Shown here one piece after another: positions 5,023-52,664 of a DNA stretch of 64,000 nucleotides; positions within the stretch are counted from its first letter, which is position 1; the number at the start of each line of letters is the position of its first letter. A model generated the notes under the pieces. It was not told the DNA's origin. It was given only the letters and a program-made list of their open reading frames with translations, and did not search any database. The stretch spans positions 1 to 64,000 of the forward strand of contig JAJEKB010019387.1 of assembly GCA_022393335.1 (NCBI GenBank). Reading direction: 5' to 3'. The position numbers and the translations under genes were made by a program. This stretch comes from Macrotrachela quadricornifera (taxonomy: Eukaryota; Rotifera; Eurotatoria; Philodinida; Philodinidae).

Positions 5023-6715
5023 CTTGTTACTTATTTGAGATTAATCAAAGTAATGTTCTGTAAAATGACATTTAGATAATACATGAGCCAATTAACCATT
5101 ACCATGTTTAACCAATTAACTATTCTTTTTCATCTAATTCAATCACTTTTAATATTGAAAAGAGAATAATAATTTGAAGAAAAAAAATCGTTCATATATG
5201 TTTTGTTCTATATCAATTGGAAAAAGAACAAGAACATATAATATCATGAATGAGAAAACAAATGTGTACAGGGAATATAGGGATAATAAATGTGTTAGAA
5301 ATGACACTTGATTTCAATGGAGAATATATATCGTAAAAAAATTTCTTTTTATGATGGGAAGTAAAGATATTCATCAATTTGTTTTTGATATATATGATCA
5401 TGTATATTACATTGACATATAATATGACTTTTGCTAAATAGGAAAAGCTTGATCTATTCAAACTTGATGACACTTTGATGTTTGCTTATATGTTAGATAT
5501 TTCAAACGAATCTGAAAACGAAAACTTATATTTATCTGTTATACAAAGACTGAGTATCATTTATGATCTATAATGTCAGTGACTCAACAGCGATATGAAA
5601 GATATGGATGGAGAGAAAGAGTAAGGTTTTATTGTTCTTATAAAGCCAGGTTAAGATAAAAAAAATCGACTGATAAATAAGATAATGAAACGTAACAGAT
5701 ATAGAGAATTTCATGAAAACTAAGATAATAAAAGTGCAAAACAAAAATATTAGATCAACGAAGATTTTTAGCTGTTACCTTTCCAAAAGGAGTGACTATA
5801 TCATTACATTTTTCAAAAGAAAATAATTTTTTTATAAAACTAACAAGTTGAATATTTACCTTAGAGAAGTAAGTCAATTATTTATAGACTAATCATTGAA
5901 AGACTTACAATTGCTACATCTTCAAGATGATGATGCAAAAAAATGTAACTTTTCATAACTTATCAAGATTTAGTGATGATATACGACTCAAGTATGTGTA
6001 CTGAGCATGCTTGTAGACGAATTCTATCTTATAGTCATAGATTATAAATCATTTTCGATATTTTCTTGAGGTTTACGCTTCTAACTGTACTGTATATACG
6101 TATGTTGACATGAACTCCTGATAAATAGATTATTAAAACATAGAGAACGCTATTGTTTATACAGAATCTTACATATCTGATTCTATGTCTCTGCTCTATA
6201 TTTTCTATATGTTATGGAGTTTTTCGTGCATTGTATCTGGCAGTTGTAGAGAAAACATGGTTTTCTTCAAATTAAACTCAAAGAAATGAAAAACAATAAA
6301 GCAAAAATTTATTTAAGCAATTGTTTTCTCATTTGCATTACAGTATGACAGTCAAACTTGTTTCATTCGGCGGTCACGACTCGTCCATGCGTTTCTTCAA
6401 ATATTGCTGCTGCTAATGACGGCCGTCGGCGATATTTTTGGGCGGGCAATATCTGTGGCGCCATTACCACTTTGTTGTTCAAGACGATATATATCTCTGT
6501 TTTATAAGAATATCAATATTCTAGTCTAACATATTCCTGCATTATTTGCTAATCGAAGTTCAGAAAGTATGTATCTAGCCAAAATCAATTCTGTTTTTTT
6601 TCAATTGTTTATCATTTTCTGAACGTACGTCATCTGTTTAGATTCGATCCAACTTGTTCAAATAATCATCAGTTGGTGAATACGAAACATTATCTAATTT
6701 CTCATAGATAACCAA
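5023..6715. other. Intergenic region with a GC-rich patch (about 6365-6485)
   Basis: About 1.7 kb without a credible gene. A patch at about 6365-6485 is much richer in G+C and CpG than the surroundings and contains the palindrome gacggccgtc (6418-6427). It lies about 230-350 bp upstream of the homeodomain-BRCT gene and may be its promoter or a regulatory element. A splice acceptor (ctcatag, ending at 6707) precedes that gene's ATG by 8 nt, so its mRNA probably has a 5' intron or a spliced leader. Confidence 0.4.
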
Positions 6716-8340
6716 ATGCCATCTGAACATTATGAACTTCCAATATCCAACAATTCATTAACAAATATCACAATAGTGCCATCAGGTTCTTCGTTAATAG
6801 ATATACTCAATCAACAATCGTGTCAAACAATATGTGAAAACAGTCAGCCAACGATTATCTTTGATGAGGCTGCAAAATCGCGTTTGAAACAAACACAAAA
6901 TTTAAGATCAAATGATCAACACAATAAAACTCTCTCTTTGACAAACAACGATGATTTTTCAGAACATGATAAAATATCAACATTATTCAATACCACTGGT
7001 CGCGAACGAAATTCTACAGGTCCTCTAAAGGAATGGCTTTATGCACATCAACACTGTCCATGTAAGGAAAAAAGGAAATTTTTTTTCTAATTGATTTTAT
7101 TATTTTTTCTAGATCCAAACGAAACTGATAAACAAGAATTAATGAAAAAAACGAATATGTCAGTATCACAAATAACTATATGGTTTACAAATGCTCGTGC
7201 TAAAATGCGTAAAGAAAATACATTACCAGTAAATTTTCATGAAAAAAAGAAAAAGGAAAAACAACAAGATAATTCAAATTATTTAGAAGAAATTTTCAAA
7301 TTACCAATATCATTTGATGGTCAAATATCTCAAACAAATATTTTTTCATCATTACTATTAAATGATAAACGAATTGTTATGGCATATTCTTGTTTAAACA
7401 GTGAACAAATTGTAAGTCGAAAAATAAATAAAATGTTTTATAAAATATTAAATTTTGTTTTAGAATAACCTTCATCATATTGTGTCAATCTATCCCAATC
7501 AATTATCAATATCTGATTGTGTTGATGATCATACAACACATCTAATTATTAGAGATGAAGAAGAAACTTTATTATGTCCATTAACAATAAAATTATTTCA
7601 ATCTATTGCACGTCATTTATATATTGTAACATATAGATGGATTGTTGAATGTTTAAAACAAAATGATATTATTGATGAAATGAACTATGAAGTCCGTGGT
7701 GATATTCCATTAGGACAATATCATGATGGTATGAGAAAAAGTCGATTATCAAAAACTGTTAAATTATTTCAGAATTGTCAATTTTTTATTTTATGTGATG
7801 GTTGTCAAGATAAAATGGTAAGAAAAAGTGATTGATTCACGACACTTTCTAAACATTTCAACACAGTTGTTTGTAGATAAAAATGCATACAGATTCTGTT
7901 ATCAGACATGTTACTTTGAATACAACTAGTCTATTGTAATTTCTTTCAAAGTTAAGGTTATTTCTTAAAAAGCTCTTTCCTTAATCAAACAATGACGAAA
8001 ACTTGTCTAAGATGGATACTAATATGAAATAGAAAAAACAAAAAAGAAATTCTTTTGCAGTAGATTTTTTTTATTTTAGTCGAAAATTGAACTGGCATCA
8101 TTAATTCAATTATGTCATGGTTCTCTTCTTGAAACATTTCCATTAACAACAACTACTGATAATTCTGTATTAACTATTGTTCTATGCAATAACTTGTTGC
8201 CATTTAATTCGTCAAATCAACAACAATTATTTGAATTATCTCGTTCAAATGGTGTTCATTTTATTATTCCTGAATGGATAATTGAATCAATTGTCCAATT
8301 TGTTTTACAACCATTTGATTCTTATGAAGAAAAATTTTAA
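6716..8340 (+). CDS. TALE homeodomain-BRCT fusion protein (BARD1/BRCA1-like BRCT pair)
   Basis: Four exons: 6716-7061, 7113-7411, 7464-7817 and 8080-8340, giving 419 aa with all phases consistent. A TALE-class homeodomain lies at about residues 95-150: GPLKEWLYAHQHCPYP, including the PYP loop, then ITIWFTNARAKMRKEN, closest to Iroquois/Mohawk. A basic linker (KKKKEKQQD) leads to a tandem BRCT region at about residues 200-419. BRCT1 has VMAYSCLNSEQ, DDHTTHLIIRDEE and YRWIVECL; BRCT2 has SRLSKTVKLFQNCQFFIL and a final IPEWIIESI. The RLxxxxKLFxxCxF spacing resembles the C-terminus of BARD1. Helix 3 of the homeodomain and the first strand of BRCT1 are in the same uninterrupted exon (7113-7411), so the fusion does not depend on a guessed splice. 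No RING or ankyrin repeats precede it. Likely role: DNA- and phosphopeptide-binding nuclear protein (inference). Confidence 0.85.
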
Positions 8341-26108: not shown

Positions 26109-28508
26109 GAACGACTAAGAAATCAAAATAGAAGAGTGTGATCTATAATGTATAAACAGAAAGGAGAAGAAGAAAAATATTATTCATCAGAATTTATTTA
26201 GTCATATCTATATACATATATACGACTTCATCGTAAGTTTGATTCATGAAAAATAAAATCATCTTTTCTGTTTATAAATAAAAACTCGTGTCAGGATGAT
26301 TGTGCAACAGAGCAAAAGAAAAGAGCTTACAAATATACTGCCTGCCTACATTTATATACTATGTTAATAATGAATCAGCATACAAAACGTAATGCACTGC
26401 ATACGTCCTTATATAAAAAATATTCTTTTTTTGTTCTGTTCTTTTCCGTTTTTTTTTACTTACATCAGTTATGTTGTAACAGTGATTCATATTAAAAAAA
26501 TCAAGTGCTCTTTATTATTTTATTTTGAATATATTTTCCAGAAGATATAATATCGTCATCTGAGAATGATTTGAATAAAAAAAACATTATAAATTTTTGA
26601 AAAAAAATTATTCTTTAGCGGGAAGGGTAACATAGTACTAATTCGTATTTATTCTCTCAATATTATCTTTATTGACGTCATCTGACTCAGATTGTTTACA
26701 TCACATAATGAACAACAAAGACAAAAACAAGGCTATGAAATGGTATACGAAAATGATGCTTAGTCATTATGCAATTAATTCTATTTATATGTCATAGACC
26801 TAGACATATTTCAGCGTTAGTTGTGACTCAATGAAAAATAGGTCATATTACCGTTATTTAAGGAAAAAGCCTTACAATTATGAAGAAGTACTTCTCACCT
26901 AACGAAATTTATTGAAACATTGACTTCTTTCAAAACTGAAATGAAGATACAAATGTCAGAATGATATATTATTTGCAACAGAGAAGTACAAAGAGATAAT
27001 AAATGACGTATATTCAAACAATTGAAAAGTAATTACATAGAAGAGATGAAAATGTCTATGAATTATATTAACTTTCGTGTTTCTTTCAAGATAAAAGTAC
27101 GGAAGTATGATACTGATATCTAGTTATATATAATAGTATTTAATTTTTATTAAATCGTTTTAATTTCATCTTAATCATGATATCCAAAAACTTGAAACAA
27201 GGAACAATAGTATATAAATTGTTTTTTTGTTTAACTAATAAAGTCATATATTGTAAATATATCCGTACAACAACAAGGACAATTACAAACACAACAATTA
27301 TTACATAGTAATAAATGAATTATTTACTTTTCATTAAAAACTTTTATCAATATAAAATTCAAAATTTCGTCAGAATCGAATAATTTCTTATTAAAAAAAA
27401 AAAAGGAAGTATCTTATCCAAAAAAACACAAAGTATCTTTCAAAACATGATTTGTATAATAAAATCATGATTTAATCGAAAACAAAAACACGTTGTAAAT
27501 AATTAAATTCTAAACTATAAAAATAGTCTAGTCTATGTCAATAAAATAGCTTTGACGAACTTCATAAGTACAACAGATTTACTATTTGTTTTACTAAAAA
27601 AATATCAATTTTAACATACACATGAATTTCAGCAAAAATTTGAAGTATTTGTTCTTTATTAACTATTTGTCGAGCAAATAAATAACTAAATATAGTTAAA
27701 TAAACAAAACTAAATGAAAGCAATTATTGACTTGTGAAAATGACTGGAGGCAATGGTGACTATTCAGATACTTATCATTGTAGATGAACATCTTTTGCAT
27801 ATAAATATTTTTCACTTGAATATATACTTTTCTTGATCCTAATATTACTTTTTGATTGATAATGAATTATATATATATGTGCAATAAAAAGACACTTGTT
27901 AAATAAATAAATGTCTCCTTTAGAGTACTGTTATATCATACAAATTAATTGTAATGCTCTATATTTTATTTTTCATTTAATAATAAAAAAATATGGTAAT
28001 ACACTAGAGACATTGGCTCAAATTACTTTTTCTCACAAGAGAGATAGTGTGAACGATAAATAAAGTTGAAGGAAAAAATTATTGGTAATATTGTATATAA
28101 AATATTACAACTGATTGAATTATCTTAGTTTTTTTTTTATCTTCTTATTAAAAATACAATAAAAGAATAATAATTAAACATTTTGTACTTTGTGCTGTAT
28201 TTTAAATGTATAAAAAATAATCGAAAATAATTTTTTTTACAAATCATGAAACGACATTCTTTTCAATTTTTTTCTCATTTTGATACATATAAGAAAAAAC
28301 TTTTCATTCTCACAATTTTTGCATCTAATCTCCGTGATTTAGTTTCTGATTAGTATATATGATATTAAATTTCGTTGACATACAATGAAAAACAATTTGA
28401 AAAAAAATCAATATTTCAGTACATTTATAAAAATTTTGTATATAAATCAATGCTATTCTTCAATATCAGCGCATACTCGAGCTAGTCTAAAACTCGATAG
28501 TAACTGTC
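26109..28508. other. Intergenic region, divergent promoters
   Basis: About 2.4 kb between the divergent phosphatase (-) and serine protease (+) genes. AT-rich, no coding potential recognised. It presumably holds both promoters. A CRE-like TGACGTCA core (near 26674, ttgacgtcatctgactca) is visible, with an AP-1-like TGACTCA beside it. Confidence 0.4.
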
Positions 28509-29767
28509 ATGTTGACATTGCCTTCCATTCTAATTTGTATTTTTTTCTTCTCATCAAATGTTTTCGGTGGACAAGAGCTTCCAATAATTACGGATCAAGA
28601 ATGTAATCCTGAAACATCATCATGGACTTCGTGGTTTAATACACAAGATCCAAAAAAAACTAATGGTAATGATGTTGAAGATATTTCAGTAATTCGAAAA
28701 TCATATCCAGAGGCAGCTCGATGTGATACAGTATTAAATGTTGAATATTCTGTTTCGGGTAAATCAAATAATGATACATCAATGTATCAAACATTAATTA
28801 ATAATAATGGCGTTTTTTGTATGGGTTCATCAACATCACGTTGTCCAGATTATAGTGTTCGTTTTTGTTGTCCACTTGAACGACCATATGCATCACAACA
28901 ATGTGGTCAAACATTTCGTCAGCCTCAATTAAATTCTAATCTTCGTATTGTCAGTGGTTTTGAAGCAGTACCACATTCATTACCTTGGGCTGTTTCATTA
29001 CAATATAAAGATGTACATGATTGTGGTGGAGTTATTATTGATCAATGGCATATAATGACAGCTGCACATTGTTTAGATTATTCGCATGATCTTGGAAATT
29101 ATTTTGCTCGTGTTGGTGCACATAATCGATATTCATCTGGACAACTTATACCTATTGCTGAATTAGTTTCACATCCAACTTATGATGAAATACGTTCAAC
29201 AGATGATATTGGAATTATTAGATTGGCTTCACCAATTACATTTTCACAAAATGTTCAACCAATTTGTCTTGTAGATAATGTTAGTAAATAGATATTCTTT
29301 TATTCTTAAATAAAAATTTATTATATTTTATTCTATAGATTATTGAACCACCACTTGATACAGCTGTTTATGTTGCTGGTTGGGGTAATACTGCACACCA
29401 AATGTGGAATAGTTCAAGTCCAGTTCTTCTTCAAGCAAAACTTCGTGTCATTTCTGATTGTTCAATGTATTTTGCTTATGAACCTCAAAAACAAATTTGC
29501 ACCGTTCATAATGGACCTGCTGATAGAGATCATGGGTCAGTCTTTTGTTATTGTTTCATTATTATCATATAATAATTATTATTTAGATCATGTCAAGGTG
29601 ATAGTGGTGGTGGTTTACTCTATTTTAAAAATGGTCGTTGGTATGCAGCTGGTGTAGTTAGTTATGCTATTGGATGCGGTCGACAAACTTTCCCAACAGT
29701 ATTTACTAAAACAGCAACTTATATTGATTGGATTCGCTCTATAATCAATCGTCCAATATCAAATTAA
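28509..29767 (+). CDS. Secreted chymotrypsin-fold serine protease (S1)
   Basis: Three exons, 28509-29279, 29339-29535 and 29587-29767, giving 382 aa. The N-terminus is a signal peptide (LPSILICIFFFSSNVFGG). A Cys-containing propeptide or linker follows at about 22-145. The activation site is R-IVSGFEAVPHSLPWAVSL. The triad is intact: His in MTAAHCLD, Asp in STDDIGIIRL and Ser in CQGDSGGG. The residue in the specificity-pocket base position (six before the active Ser) is Gly in HGSCQGDSGG, not Asp, so trypsin-like cleavage after Arg/Lys is not expected; chymotrypsin- or elastase-like specificity is more likely (inference). Fits a digestive or defence protease. Confidence 0.9.
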
Positions 29768-47713: not shown

Positions 47714-49520
47714 TTAAAATCGTTTTGAACTTGTCCAACTACTGAATAATCCTTTTGATTGTTTTGCAGGTGAATGTGCTGCTGCTTGACGTTTTTGTTC
47801 TTCTGCTTCCTAAATTAATAAAATCAAAACATATTTAAATAAGAAATAATATTTTAAATCATACAAGTAATTTTTGTTGTCGAATCAAAAATGCTTCAAT
47901 AGGATCTAATTCTTGATTATAATGATCAAGTACATCACGTACATCTTCAACACCACTTGCAGCAATCACTATAGAAAAAAAAATAATTATAATAAAAAGA
48001 ATAAATCAAACAAACTTCGAAGAAAAGCAGCTAAATGAAGTAATTGTCTATCATCATCTTGACCATCCCATTTTTTTAAACGATGTAAAGCATTTCGAGG
48101 CTGTAATTGATAAGATTTTTCATCCCAATCTATGAAAATTATTTTTTTTAAATCACGATTAAGACATGATAAATCCTAAAAAAAATAAATTTTATATTAA
48201 TTTCTTAATAATATAAGAAAAATTCATTACTTTAACATGAGCACCATTTATAAACCGAGTATCTTCACGAAATAAACGATGCATTATACGATGTTCAGGA
48301 TCCATATGCTCAATAACTGAATTTGTAGTCTACAAAAAATAATTATTATCGATTTAATTAGAATAAACTTATTAGATGATTCATACAGATCATTCTATAC
48401 ATTATCATATAAAAACATTATATTTACGTCATTGTTTTATCAAAGTTTTAGTGACCGAATAGAGAATAAAAAACTAACTTATCTTATCTCTCATACAGCC
48501 AATGTTTCTTCTTAAATCTTATATTAAAATGCACTATTATGATTTTATATGATAATAAATTTACACGATTACTTCAACAATTAATATTATAAAATTAAAA
48601 AAAAAGCATTAAGATATGAAAAGTTAAATTTTGTTTTTCTTAAACTTGAGAAATTGCTTCGAATGAAAATAAAGAACTATACATTGCTCTATAATTATTC
48701 AATTTGATTGAAATTAGTATAGAAACAATTATTTTCGTAAAGAAAAATTCAGGAAAAAGATCAGGCAATTTGAAAACCTTAAGTAGAAAAAAAGAAATAT
48801 TCATACCCATGTTGTTTCTTTTGTATAAATAACAACTTCAAAAACTGGATAACCAACTTCTTTTAAAAAATAATCTAAACCTGGTCGTTTTTTATATCTC
48901 CATCCTGTATTATAAGCCCAATCTGGGCTTAATAAAATTCCTGACATTTCAATAACTAATGTATATGGTGGTTGATAATATGGTGGTGGAAGTGGTTCTG
49001 GTAAAAGTTTTTCACTTGTTGGATCTTTAATTGTTTGCCAATAATCAATAATTCCATGATATGATCGTCGAATATATTGTTGCCATGTTGGTAAATGTGA
49101 AAATTGATCTTGTACAATATTACCTTCTTGATCAATTTGTGGTGAACCCCAAACAAGAATAATATAACCAACTGTTGAAAATAACCATATACCAAGAAAA
49201 TATCCTGTATATTTTAACATTCGTATATCCCATGCTGCTTTAGCTTCACGTTCACGTTGTTCTCCATCAGTTTGTTCTGCTGTATATTTTGGTTCTGATG
49301 ATGTTTTAGAAAATATAAACGGTGTTTTACTCTCATTATCACCCATTAATGAAGATAATTTCGTTGATGATGATGATGATGATGTATCCTGTGTTGGTTT
49401 TTGTTGAAAATACAAAGCAGAAAATGTAAATGTACGATTATCTATTTTTATTTTTTGTTGTTTAAGAATTTTTAATGAACAAGGGAGAGAAAATATTCTT
49501 GATCGTAATGCAGAAAACAT
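47714..49520 (-). CDS. TIMM50: TIMM50 (mitochondrial presequence translocase receptor)
   Basis: Five exons (minus): 48807-49520, 48231-48329, 48016-48175, 47865-47968 and 47714-47809, giving 390 aa. The N-terminus is basic and Ser-rich, as for a mitochondrial targeting sequence (MFSALRSRIFSLPCSLKILK). One membrane segment lies at about 120-140 (YFLGIWLFSTVGYIILVWG). The FCP1/NIF-like domain follows: KLLPEPLPPPYYQPPYTLVI, TGWRYKKRPGLDYF, VVIYTKET, DLSCLNRD, IDWDEKSYQLQPRNAL and WDGQDDDRQLL. The first catalytic Asp of the DxDx(T/V) motif is replaced (VIEMSG), consistent with the receptor role of TIM50 rather than phosphatase activity. It sits 168 bp downstream of MFSD1 and 113 bp upstream of ZFYVE26 in the same orientation. 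An acceptor (tttcag, 49539-49540) lies 18 nt before the ATG. Confidence 0.94.
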
Positions 49521-49688
49521 TCTTTTTTTTAATGTGATCTGAAACTTTTAAAAAAAAATAAAGAATCAATTATCATTCAAAATTTGTTTGTTTTTTTAAT
49601 ATAATCAACATGAAAAAAAAAAATCATCATGAAAAAAAAAATTAAATTAATGTTTTGAAAGACATTTTGTATTAATAAATCGTATTTG

Positions 49689-51573: not shown

Positions 51574-51908
51574 AGTTCTATTCTAAGATCAAAGATCTCA
51601 AATGAAAAAAAAAAGAACAGAGGTAATGATGATAACATAAACTTTAATCATTAGTCATTCAAACAACTGATCAAATCTTCGTCTGATAAAAACCTTTTAT
51701 TAAACACCTAATATTCGAAACAAAAAAAAAAAGTAAACGACTGATAACAACTATTCTATTGATTATCTTGACTTGAATTTTTTTCAAAAAACTGACATCT
51801 ATCATTTATGATTGATTAATAAATAATACCAATGAAGATTTCTTAAATGACTCATTATAAGTTGCTCAATTGTTTAACTTTTAAAAATTATTTTTCTCAA
51901 ATAAAAAT
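51574..51908. promoter_or_regulatory. Divergent promoter region for two gene arrays
   Basis: 335 bp between the MFSD1 ATG (-) and the FCP1-like ATG (+). It is AT-rich with no coding potential. It should contain the promoters for the five-gene minus-strand array and the two-gene plus-strand array. Confidence 0.5.
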
Positions 51909-52664
51909 ATGTCAAAACTTAAACGCTTAATAATTCTTGATCTTAATGGTCTTCTTGTTCATCGTGTTTATAAAGATGAATATATGAAATATAAACGCTT
52001 ATTTCAAGAACACAATGATCTGGGTAATCTTTCTCGTCCTGAAAAAATAGGAAACTTTGCTGTATGGTTTCGTCCTAATGTTAAACAATTTCTTTCATGG
52101 TTAATGGAACATTTTCATGTTGCTATTTGGTCATCTGTATTAAGACATAATATTGCACCTATTGTTGAATCATTACTACCTAATGAACGTGATCGTTCAC
52201 GTTTATTATTTTGGTGGAATCAAGAAAATTGCTTTATTGAAGATGATCCAACAACCACAGATCCAAAAAAAGCTAAATCATTTTATAAACGTTTAACATC
52301 TGTATGGGATTCAGCTGAAATAAATGAACATTGGTCAATGAATCAACCAAATAATATTGATTTACGAGATCATACATTATTAATTGATGATAATAAACTA
52401 AAAGTTCGTGATAATCCAATACATACAGCTATACATCCACGTACATGGAAATTATTTGAATTATATAATGATAATCATGATATAAGAATATTTAAAGATA
52501 ATGTTTTAGATACTGATGGACAATTAAGAAAATGGTTAGAAGGTTTATTAAAATCCAATGAAACAGTAGCTGAATATGTTGAAAATAATCCATATATTGA
52601 TCCACCTGTAGAAGAAATTGAAAAGAAAACTAATGATTCTTGGAGTTCTTCCGGTTGGGATTAA
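51909..52664 (+). CDS. FCP1-homology (NIF/HAD) domain protein with DLNG motif
   Basis: Single exon of 251 aa. It begins LKRLIILDLNGLLVHRV, where an FCP1/SCP-type HAD phosphatase has DxDxT. The first (nucleophile) Asp is kept and the second Asp is Asn. Downstream are WFRPNVKQFLSWLMEHFHVAIWSS (the RPG..FL region), a long insert (LLFWWNQENCF, DPKKAKSFYKRLTSVW) and DHTLLIDDNKLKVRDN with the distal Asp pair. The DLNG subclass is found in plants, protists and some invertebrates. Whether it dephosphorylates proteins, as CTD phosphatases do, or has lost activity cannot be told. It ends in Trp/Ser/Gly/Asp-rich SWSSSGWD. TMEM192 starts only 68 bp downstream. Confidence 0.85.
   Translation: MSKLKRLIILDLNGLLVHRVYKDEYMKYKRLFQEHNDLGNLSRPEKIGNFAVWFRPNVKQFLSWLMEHFHVAIWSSVLRHNIAPIVESLLPNERDRSRLLFWWNQENCFIEDDPTTTDPKKAKSFYKRLTSVWDSAEINEHWSMNQPNNIDLRDHTLLIDDNKLKVRDNPIHTAIHPRTWKLFELYNDNHDIRIFKDNVLDTDGQLRKWLEGLLKSNETVAEYVENNPYIDPPVEEIEKKTNDSWSSSGWD

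Follow-up and report, generated by a model that had tools for sequence, protein, structure and literature searches.

A TALE homeodomain and a BRCA1-type BRCT pair on one spliced chain in bdelloid rotifers

In the usual view, BRCA1 is a ubiquitin ligase that locates phosphorylated partners at DNA breaks, wherever these lie, through its BRCT end. BRCT domains also share chains with other DNA-meeting parts: the repair proteins PARP1, DNA ligase III and XRCC1 carry single or other types of BRCT domain and work on broken ends or nicks rather than on sequence motifs. Bdelloid rotifers are tiny animals that survive massive DNA breakage. In a 64,000-nucleotide (nt) stretch of the bdelloid Macrotrachela quadricornifera (contig JAJEKB010019387.1, positions 1 to 64,000; hereafter the window), positions 6716–8340 of the plus strand encode a protein of 419 amino acids (aa) in which a TALE homeodomain is followed by a BRCA1-type tandem BRCT. 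It is a real, conserved, spliced protein; its parts are known, their combination is new and its role is putative. The sequence-only reading of this stretch knew of no described animal protein of this kind. None was found here either in the literature searched, most subscription papers lying outside its reach, and the fusion is not described in the accessible parts of PMC6264785, PMC12220480, PMC10809525, PMC6118893, PMC5322547, PMC8524836 and PMC12460157.

For the gene model, GT/GC-AG splice combinations were enumerated around the proposed exon borders. One open frame of 419 aa was obtained from four exons separated by GT-AG introns; the sole other solution printed used a donor 6 nt upstream and gave 417 aa. 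A single exon, exon 2, holds both homeodomain helices 2–3 (ITIWFTNARAKMRKEN) and the first BRCT strand (RIVMAYSCLNSEQI). The features are as follows.

6716–7061, plus strand: exon 1, from splice enumeration; start codon, poorly conserved N-terminus and homeodomain helix 1
6998–7222, plus strand: TALE homeodomain, residues 95–152, split by intron 1 (Pfam, alignment)
7062–7112, plus strand: intron 1, GT-AG, 51 nt, interrupting the homeodomain at the TALE 'PYP' loop
7113–7411, plus strand: exon 2, chimeric; homeodomain helices 2–3, linker and first BRCT strand
7223–7363, plus strand: linker, basic and then of low conservation, residues 153–199 (pairwise identity)
7364–7694, plus strand: BRCT repeat 1, residues 200–292, split by intron 2 (Pfam, BRCA1 alignment)
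7412–7463, plus strand: intron 2, GT-AG, 52 nt, its place and phase common to related BRCT loci of the genome
7464–7817, plus strand: exon 3; remainder of BRCT repeat 1, inter-repeat segment (EVRGD...HDGMRKSR) and start of BRCT repeat 2
7755–8328, plus strand: BRCT repeat 2, residues 313–416, split by intron 3 (Pfam, BRCA1 alignment)
7818–8079, plus strand: intron 3, GT-AG, 262 nt, from splice enumeration
8080–8340, plus strand: exon 4; end of BRCT repeat 2 and stop codon

The start methionine lies at or close to the same position in the group-A relatives aligned, and a group-B paralogue of the same genome, on contig C4412, is broken at the same place as intron 1. Profile searches, which the sequence-only reading had proposed as a check, bore out its claim of one spliced protein with both domains. 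Homeobox_KN was matched at residues 107–145 with an expectation (E) value of 8.8e-17 (61.1 bits against a cut-off of 24), BRCT in two stretches at 1.1e-12 and BRCT_2 at 7.5e-12, all over the curated cut-offs.

Comparison of the family profile with solved structures gave 112 bits (5.7e-23) for BRCA1, 31 bits (6e-4) for BARD1 and 29 bits for MCPH1. As judged by sequence, the BRCT pair is of the BRCA1 type and not of the BARD1 type. The earlier label 'BARD1/BRCA1-type' thus holds in its BRCA1 half and fails in its BARD1 half; the 81 bits between the two rule out a BARD1 origin, and with it the suggested BARD1-derived regulator. With BARD1 the fusion shares the tandem BRCT fold, and neither RING nor ankyrin repeats are reported in it. 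The likeness to BRCA1 extends to the binding pockets and to the VRGD...HxG...R pattern between the repeats. The phosphoserine pocket residues S208, T256 and K258 and the +3 pocket residue F260 are located in BRCT repeat 1, and the +3 pocket residues M333 and I401 in repeat 2. When 14 sequences were aligned with human BRCA1, the equivalents of T1700, K1702, F1704 and M1775 were present in all 14, that of S1655 was serine in 13 and threonine in one, and that of L1839 was leucine or isoleucine. By analogy with BRCA1, the pair would bind phosphopeptides.

Gene structure points in the same direction. Exon 2 ends in phase 0 after codon 215, the equivalent of BRCA1 residue 1662, and the human BRCA1 exon border at c.4986/4987, at codon 1662, has the same phase. 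Given the site and phase of intron 2, the BRCT part appears to be a segment of a BRCA1 gene, intron included, rather than a chance resemblance. The fusion differs from BRCA1 in lacking the long central region and any RING that could be found, the TALE homeodomain standing in their stead. No RING or other ubiquitin domain was reported by Pfam in the 419 aa, and the role in ubiquitin signalling once proposed for the protein is not upheld.

In the homeodomain, the general Homeodomain profile was matched at 2.6e-10, over its curated cut-off. The three-residue TALE loop with PYP is present, LKEWLYAHQHCPYP aligning without gaps to TALE reference sequences. Positions W48, F49, N51 and R53 are kept, with T at 50 and K at 55, in homeodomain numbering. 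As in other TALE proteins (IRX, MKX, TGIF, MEIS, PKNOX, PBX), the domain would be expected to bind a DNA sequence; unlike them, the fusion shows none of their usual partner domains in Pfam and has a BRCT pair instead.

The architecture is conserved across bdelloids. A word-based protein search (E ≤ 1e-3, length window 0.55–1.75) retained 16 proteins from 1815 candidates, of which 15 carry Homeobox_KN and BRCT together. Twelve of the 15 come from Adineta steineri, A. vaga, A. ricciae, Rotaria sordida, Rotaria sp. Silwood1 and Silwood2, and Didymodactylos carnosus, in line with the earlier proposal to look for the arrangement in other rotifer genomes. All 13 of the 16 matches with an organism label are from bdelloids, which supports a rotifer as the source of the DNA, a condition raised in the sequence-only reading. 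The A. vaga equivalent of the locus is I4U23_007089. Within the reach of this search, bdelloids alone showed the architecture; other rotifers may have it. A profile search gave 19 proteins from 4098 candidates, the new ones being a BRCT-only protein of 222 aa on a 925-nt contig (P0017), a read-through fragment with the homeodomain side only (P0018) and Xenopus microcephalin (2.3e-5). A search with the homeodomain alone matched 13 of 14 candidates, every one found before; with so few candidates, 13 of them known, it had little chance of reaching other TALE families.

Homeobox_KN, BRCT and BRCT_2 were reported in 13 of 13 full-length relatives and are collinear in the alignment. The homeodomain and BRCT are far better conserved than the N-terminus and the linker; mean pairwise identity is 0.79 for the homeodomain against 0.39 for the linker. 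In a tree of 14 sequences, the window protein falls within a seven-row group (support 100/99), the other rows not being resolved as one group. Adineta and Rotaria occur in both sets of rows, a pattern that a duplication predating their split would leave. Two relatives bear on splicing: P0004 is an uninterrupted group-B frame of 399 aa on a 1426-nt contig, and P0012 one of 405 aa on a 1348-nt contig. Because the group-B locus of the present genome (L039) has this protein distributed among six exon-like pieces within about 2.2 kb, with putative splice joins, these contigs are most easily read as spliced transcripts; they may instead be intronless gene copies. In P0015, exon 2 runs into exon 3 without intron 2 and apparent intron translations stand at both ends; so read, homeodomain helix 3 and BRCT repeat 1 would share one exon there. 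In the sixteenth match, the A. steineri protein P0016, a group-B homeodomain and linker are joined to unrelated sequence where BRCT is expected, which is either an annotation or assembly fusion or a true exon swap.

We consider it somewhat probable that the protein is a nuclear adaptor with two working parts on one chain, a DNA-bound homeodomain and a phosphopeptide-reading BRCT pair. From what the two families do, the homeodomain would anchor the protein to short motifs in DNA, and the BRCT pair would bind partners whose phosphoserine (pSer)-x-x-hydrophobic motifs come from damage or cell-cycle kinases. In this way, partners in repair, checkpoint control or transcription would be brought to chosen sites once phosphorylated. 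Judging by the intron pattern, the BRCT part would descend from exons at the C-terminal end of an ancestral BRCA1 gene.

Several findings weigh against the adaptor reading. R1699 of BRCA1 contacts the peptide backbone, and its equivalent is leucine in all 14 aligned sequences, in which G1656 is likewise replaced by cysteine. With leucine there, the peptide contact is probably altered and the preferred motif may differ from pSer-x-x-Phe, so that affinity or specificity may not be those of BRCA1. The structure model, built on 13 rows, is weak (mean predicted local distance difference test score, 55). A structure prediction had been suggested as a check, and the tandem BRCT fold was indeed recognized; the mutual packing of the repeats was not reproduced, as judged by the high root-mean-square deviation, and the fold comparison was tied (MCPH1, 13.0; BRCA1, 12.8; BARD1, 12.8), leaving BRCA1 unseparated. 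Two trees separate the bdelloid BRCT rows from human BRCA1 and MCPH1, with weak support (72/94 and 72/87). On the homeodomain side, the match to the general profile begins only at position 20 of 57, which indicates a divergent N-terminal arm and helix 1 start; helix 1 is predicted to be short, spanning residues 94–102 of P0001. Three group-A proteins of Rotaria have Q instead of K at position 55.

The class of the homeodomain is also uncertain. Against reference sequences, the mean over 10 family members is nearest to IRX (22.3 of 47 positions), then MKX (19.9), with other classes at 17–19, while the window's own domain is nearest to PBX1 (21), followed by IRX (20) and MKX (19). Among the 60 matches listed from solved structures, TGIF2LX is best (48.5 bits) and PKNOX1 scores 46.7; no IRX or MKX chain is among those 60. 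A 67-column tree, in which branches are long, leaves the family unplaced. The conflicting nearest classes and this tree rule out assignment to a single TALE class.

It is rather doubtful that the protein is a transcription factor and not a repair factor, its homeodomain picking promoters and its BRCT pair reading the phosphorylated tail of RNA polymerase II or chromatin proteins, with transcription tied to S phase or to recovery from drying. Although Pfam reported no activation domain in the 419 aa and the BRCA1 BRCT pair is best known from damage signalling, TALE proteins are mostly developmental regulators. A structure of the BRCA1 BRCT pair with an RNA polymerase II phosphoserine-5 C-terminal-domain (pSer5-CTD) peptide exists, according to the title of entry 9qpx, and 15 Homeodomain genes are over-expressed only in flight in A. 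vaga, their members not being named in the portion of PMC12220480 available.

The fusion gene is not alone in its genome. The assembly (450 Mb, 5695 contigs) gave 38 matches in a BRCT family search, and many of those viewed presumably represent RFC1, XRCC1, TopBP1, FCP1, PARP1 or ligase IV, which they resemble by eye. With the fusion protein as query there were 50 matches, the group-B paralogue on C4412 among them. A near-identical copy on C2831 (94–95%), probably an allele, repeats the chimeric exon. A second, divergent TALE homeodomain–BRCT kind occurs on C964, C4665 and C550, with the homeodomain core LKKWLREHRNHPYPSNQEK...WFNNARAILRRR. Two of its loci have the same BRCT intron as the window gene.

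C964, 101500–104500 (L040): homeodomain–BRCT gene of the second kind
C550, 350–3000 (L041): homeodomain–BRCT gene of the second kind

Their Homeobox_KN matches are 2.2e-15 and 1.5e-15, respectively, and in both the first-strand piece and BRCT exons follow the homeodomain on the same strand within 3 kb, with putative introns of about 1 kb. For a single shared origin of the homeodomain–BRCT kinds, the approximately unbiased (AU) test gave p = 0.12, which neither establishes nor rejects it.

Related BRCT genes without a homeodomain match are found on C4017 (two), C316, C66, C266, C267, C4658, C248, C641, C4122 and C499, making at least seven when near copies are left out. The best PDB match was BRCA1 for three of three such genes tested; the remainder owe the BRCA1-type label to their similarity to the fusion protein (1.9e-16 to 2.2e-35). 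The phase-0 intron at the 1662 position was found wherever the first-strand exon could be placed.

1662-position intron present: window, C2831, C4412, C964, C550, C4017 (both genes), C66, C266, C4658, C641 and C248

On C248, SSLTRQQM is followed by a GT codon at the intron position; its alignment is less certain on C4122 and C499, and on C267 the automated search missed the first-strand motif and found only the following exon. Across 10 loci (C499 and near copies excluded), K1702 is kept in 10, S1655 is S or T in nine, T1700 is T or S in 10 and R1699 is replaced in 10; positions 1704 and 1775 vary.

The N-terminal parts of these genes differ. Two BRCA1-type tandem BRCT genes lie side by side on C4017 (246500–256400; L014/L032), one behind C2H2-like motifs and the other behind a C-x7-C-x9-C-x2-H-type motif; near copies of both occur on C316, and of the first also on C66. 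In the former gene a C2H2 motif exon (CSTCHHEFSHRSAYLRHVRRIHH) is followed on the same strand by a second, shorter motif split by an intron. Pfam gave 0.069 for the first exon, below the cut-off, and nothing for the second, so the label 'C2H2-like' rests on the motif; some joins are weak. Further genes carry short Cys/His motifs (e.g. LCQIEKCFKRDQKSQGVCLIH), with no Pfam family over cut-off. Short basic Cys/His motifs were seen in the N-terminal exons of L043, L044, L045 and L046 (C248, C641, C4122 and C499), of the form C-x4-C-x10-C-x2-H in L043 and as two similar pieces per gene in L045 and L046; no Pfam family passed the cut-off for the N-terminal pieces tested. The genes on C266 (L019/L030) and C4658 (L042) have a DPYxF start, long low-complexity exons and a similar Cys-rich stretch (CNDVSICPC and CQDVSSCPC) ahead of BRCT.

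The fusion gene belongs to a larger set of bdelloid genes in which BRCA1-type BRCT parts sit behind various heads. From the gene structure, exon shuffling would have placed C-terminal exons of an ancestral BRCA1 gene behind other N-terminal modules. With the reader end on several heads, bdelloids seem to have a small toolkit of DNA-addressed BRCA1-like adaptors. Since K1702 is kept at all 10 loci and the +3 pocket varies among members, the members may differ in the phosphorylated partner that they bring and in the sites to which they bring it. It is possible, and we put it forward tentatively, that in bdelloids the phosphopeptide-reading end of BRCA1 was split from the ubiquitin ligase and set on several DNA-binding heads (TALE homeodomains of at least two kinds, C2H2-like fingers and further short Cys/His motifs), yielding sequence-addressed readers that help to rebuild shattered genomes. 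A break-tolerant lineage with a BRCT reader on DNA-binding domains raises the question of whether DNA sequence can direct where phosphopeptides are read. The set also provides a series of naturally occurring pocket variants of the BRCA1 BRCT, a domain of clinical importance; leucine at the R1699 position is among them.

That these fusions replace bdelloid BRCA1 itself, the RING part having been lost and the C-terminus surviving only in fusions, is unlikely, though compatible with the adaptor reading. No single-exon RING pattern was found around the related BRCT genes in L029–L037 or L042–L046, a search that covered those stretches only and that an intron-split RING would escape, and a tblastn search of 28 loci with BRCA1 and BARD1 RING pieces gave no match at E ≤ 1. 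According to PMC6264785, BRCA2, Rad52 and Nbs1 are missing from A. vaga, which prompts a second question, whether the loss of standard recombination factors was balanced by a rebuilt BRCA1. Set against replacement, A. vaga genes are labelled BRCA1 (FUN_025314) and BARD1 (FUN_018514) in a table of PMC12220480, of which the part available does not show the proteins behind the labels.

A Rap1-like chromosome or telomere protein, binding specific sequences and using BRCT for clustering or silencing, is very improbable. Rap1 likewise puts a helix-turn-helix DNA-binding domain and BRCT on one chain, but it combines a single BRCT with Myb-type domains and an RCT at the C-terminus, whereas the fusion has a BRCA1-type pair and a TALE homeodomain, differs in domain order and shows no Myb-type or RCT domain in Pfam. 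Two neighbouring genes or an assembly error, for which it can be said that the single chain at this locus is supported by genomic sequence and not by a transcript of the locus itself, has next to no probability and is ruled out by the exon holding parts of both domains, the C2831 copy of the arrangement and the 15 of 16 matches with both domains.

Around the fusion gene, a donor-like GTATGT at 6567 lies upstream of the start codon, as do an acceptor-like GTTTAG seen by eye near 6641 and an acceptor-like TTTCTCATAG ending at 6707. These sites (6567–6707) may mark a 5' untranslated region intron or a trans-splice acceptor. Positions 6350–6480, about 250–350 nt 5' of the start codon, appear GC-richer by eye, the window having 25% GC. 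The E2F-type pattern TTTSSCGC has no match in the window. Elsewhere in the window, frames at 48804–49547 (minus strand) and 51885–52661 (plus strand) lie near each other and carry NLI-interacting-factor-like phosphatase domains (3.2e-5 and 2e-12), and one frame at 28491–29288 (plus strand) encodes a Mucin2 WxxW repeat followed by a Trypsin domain.
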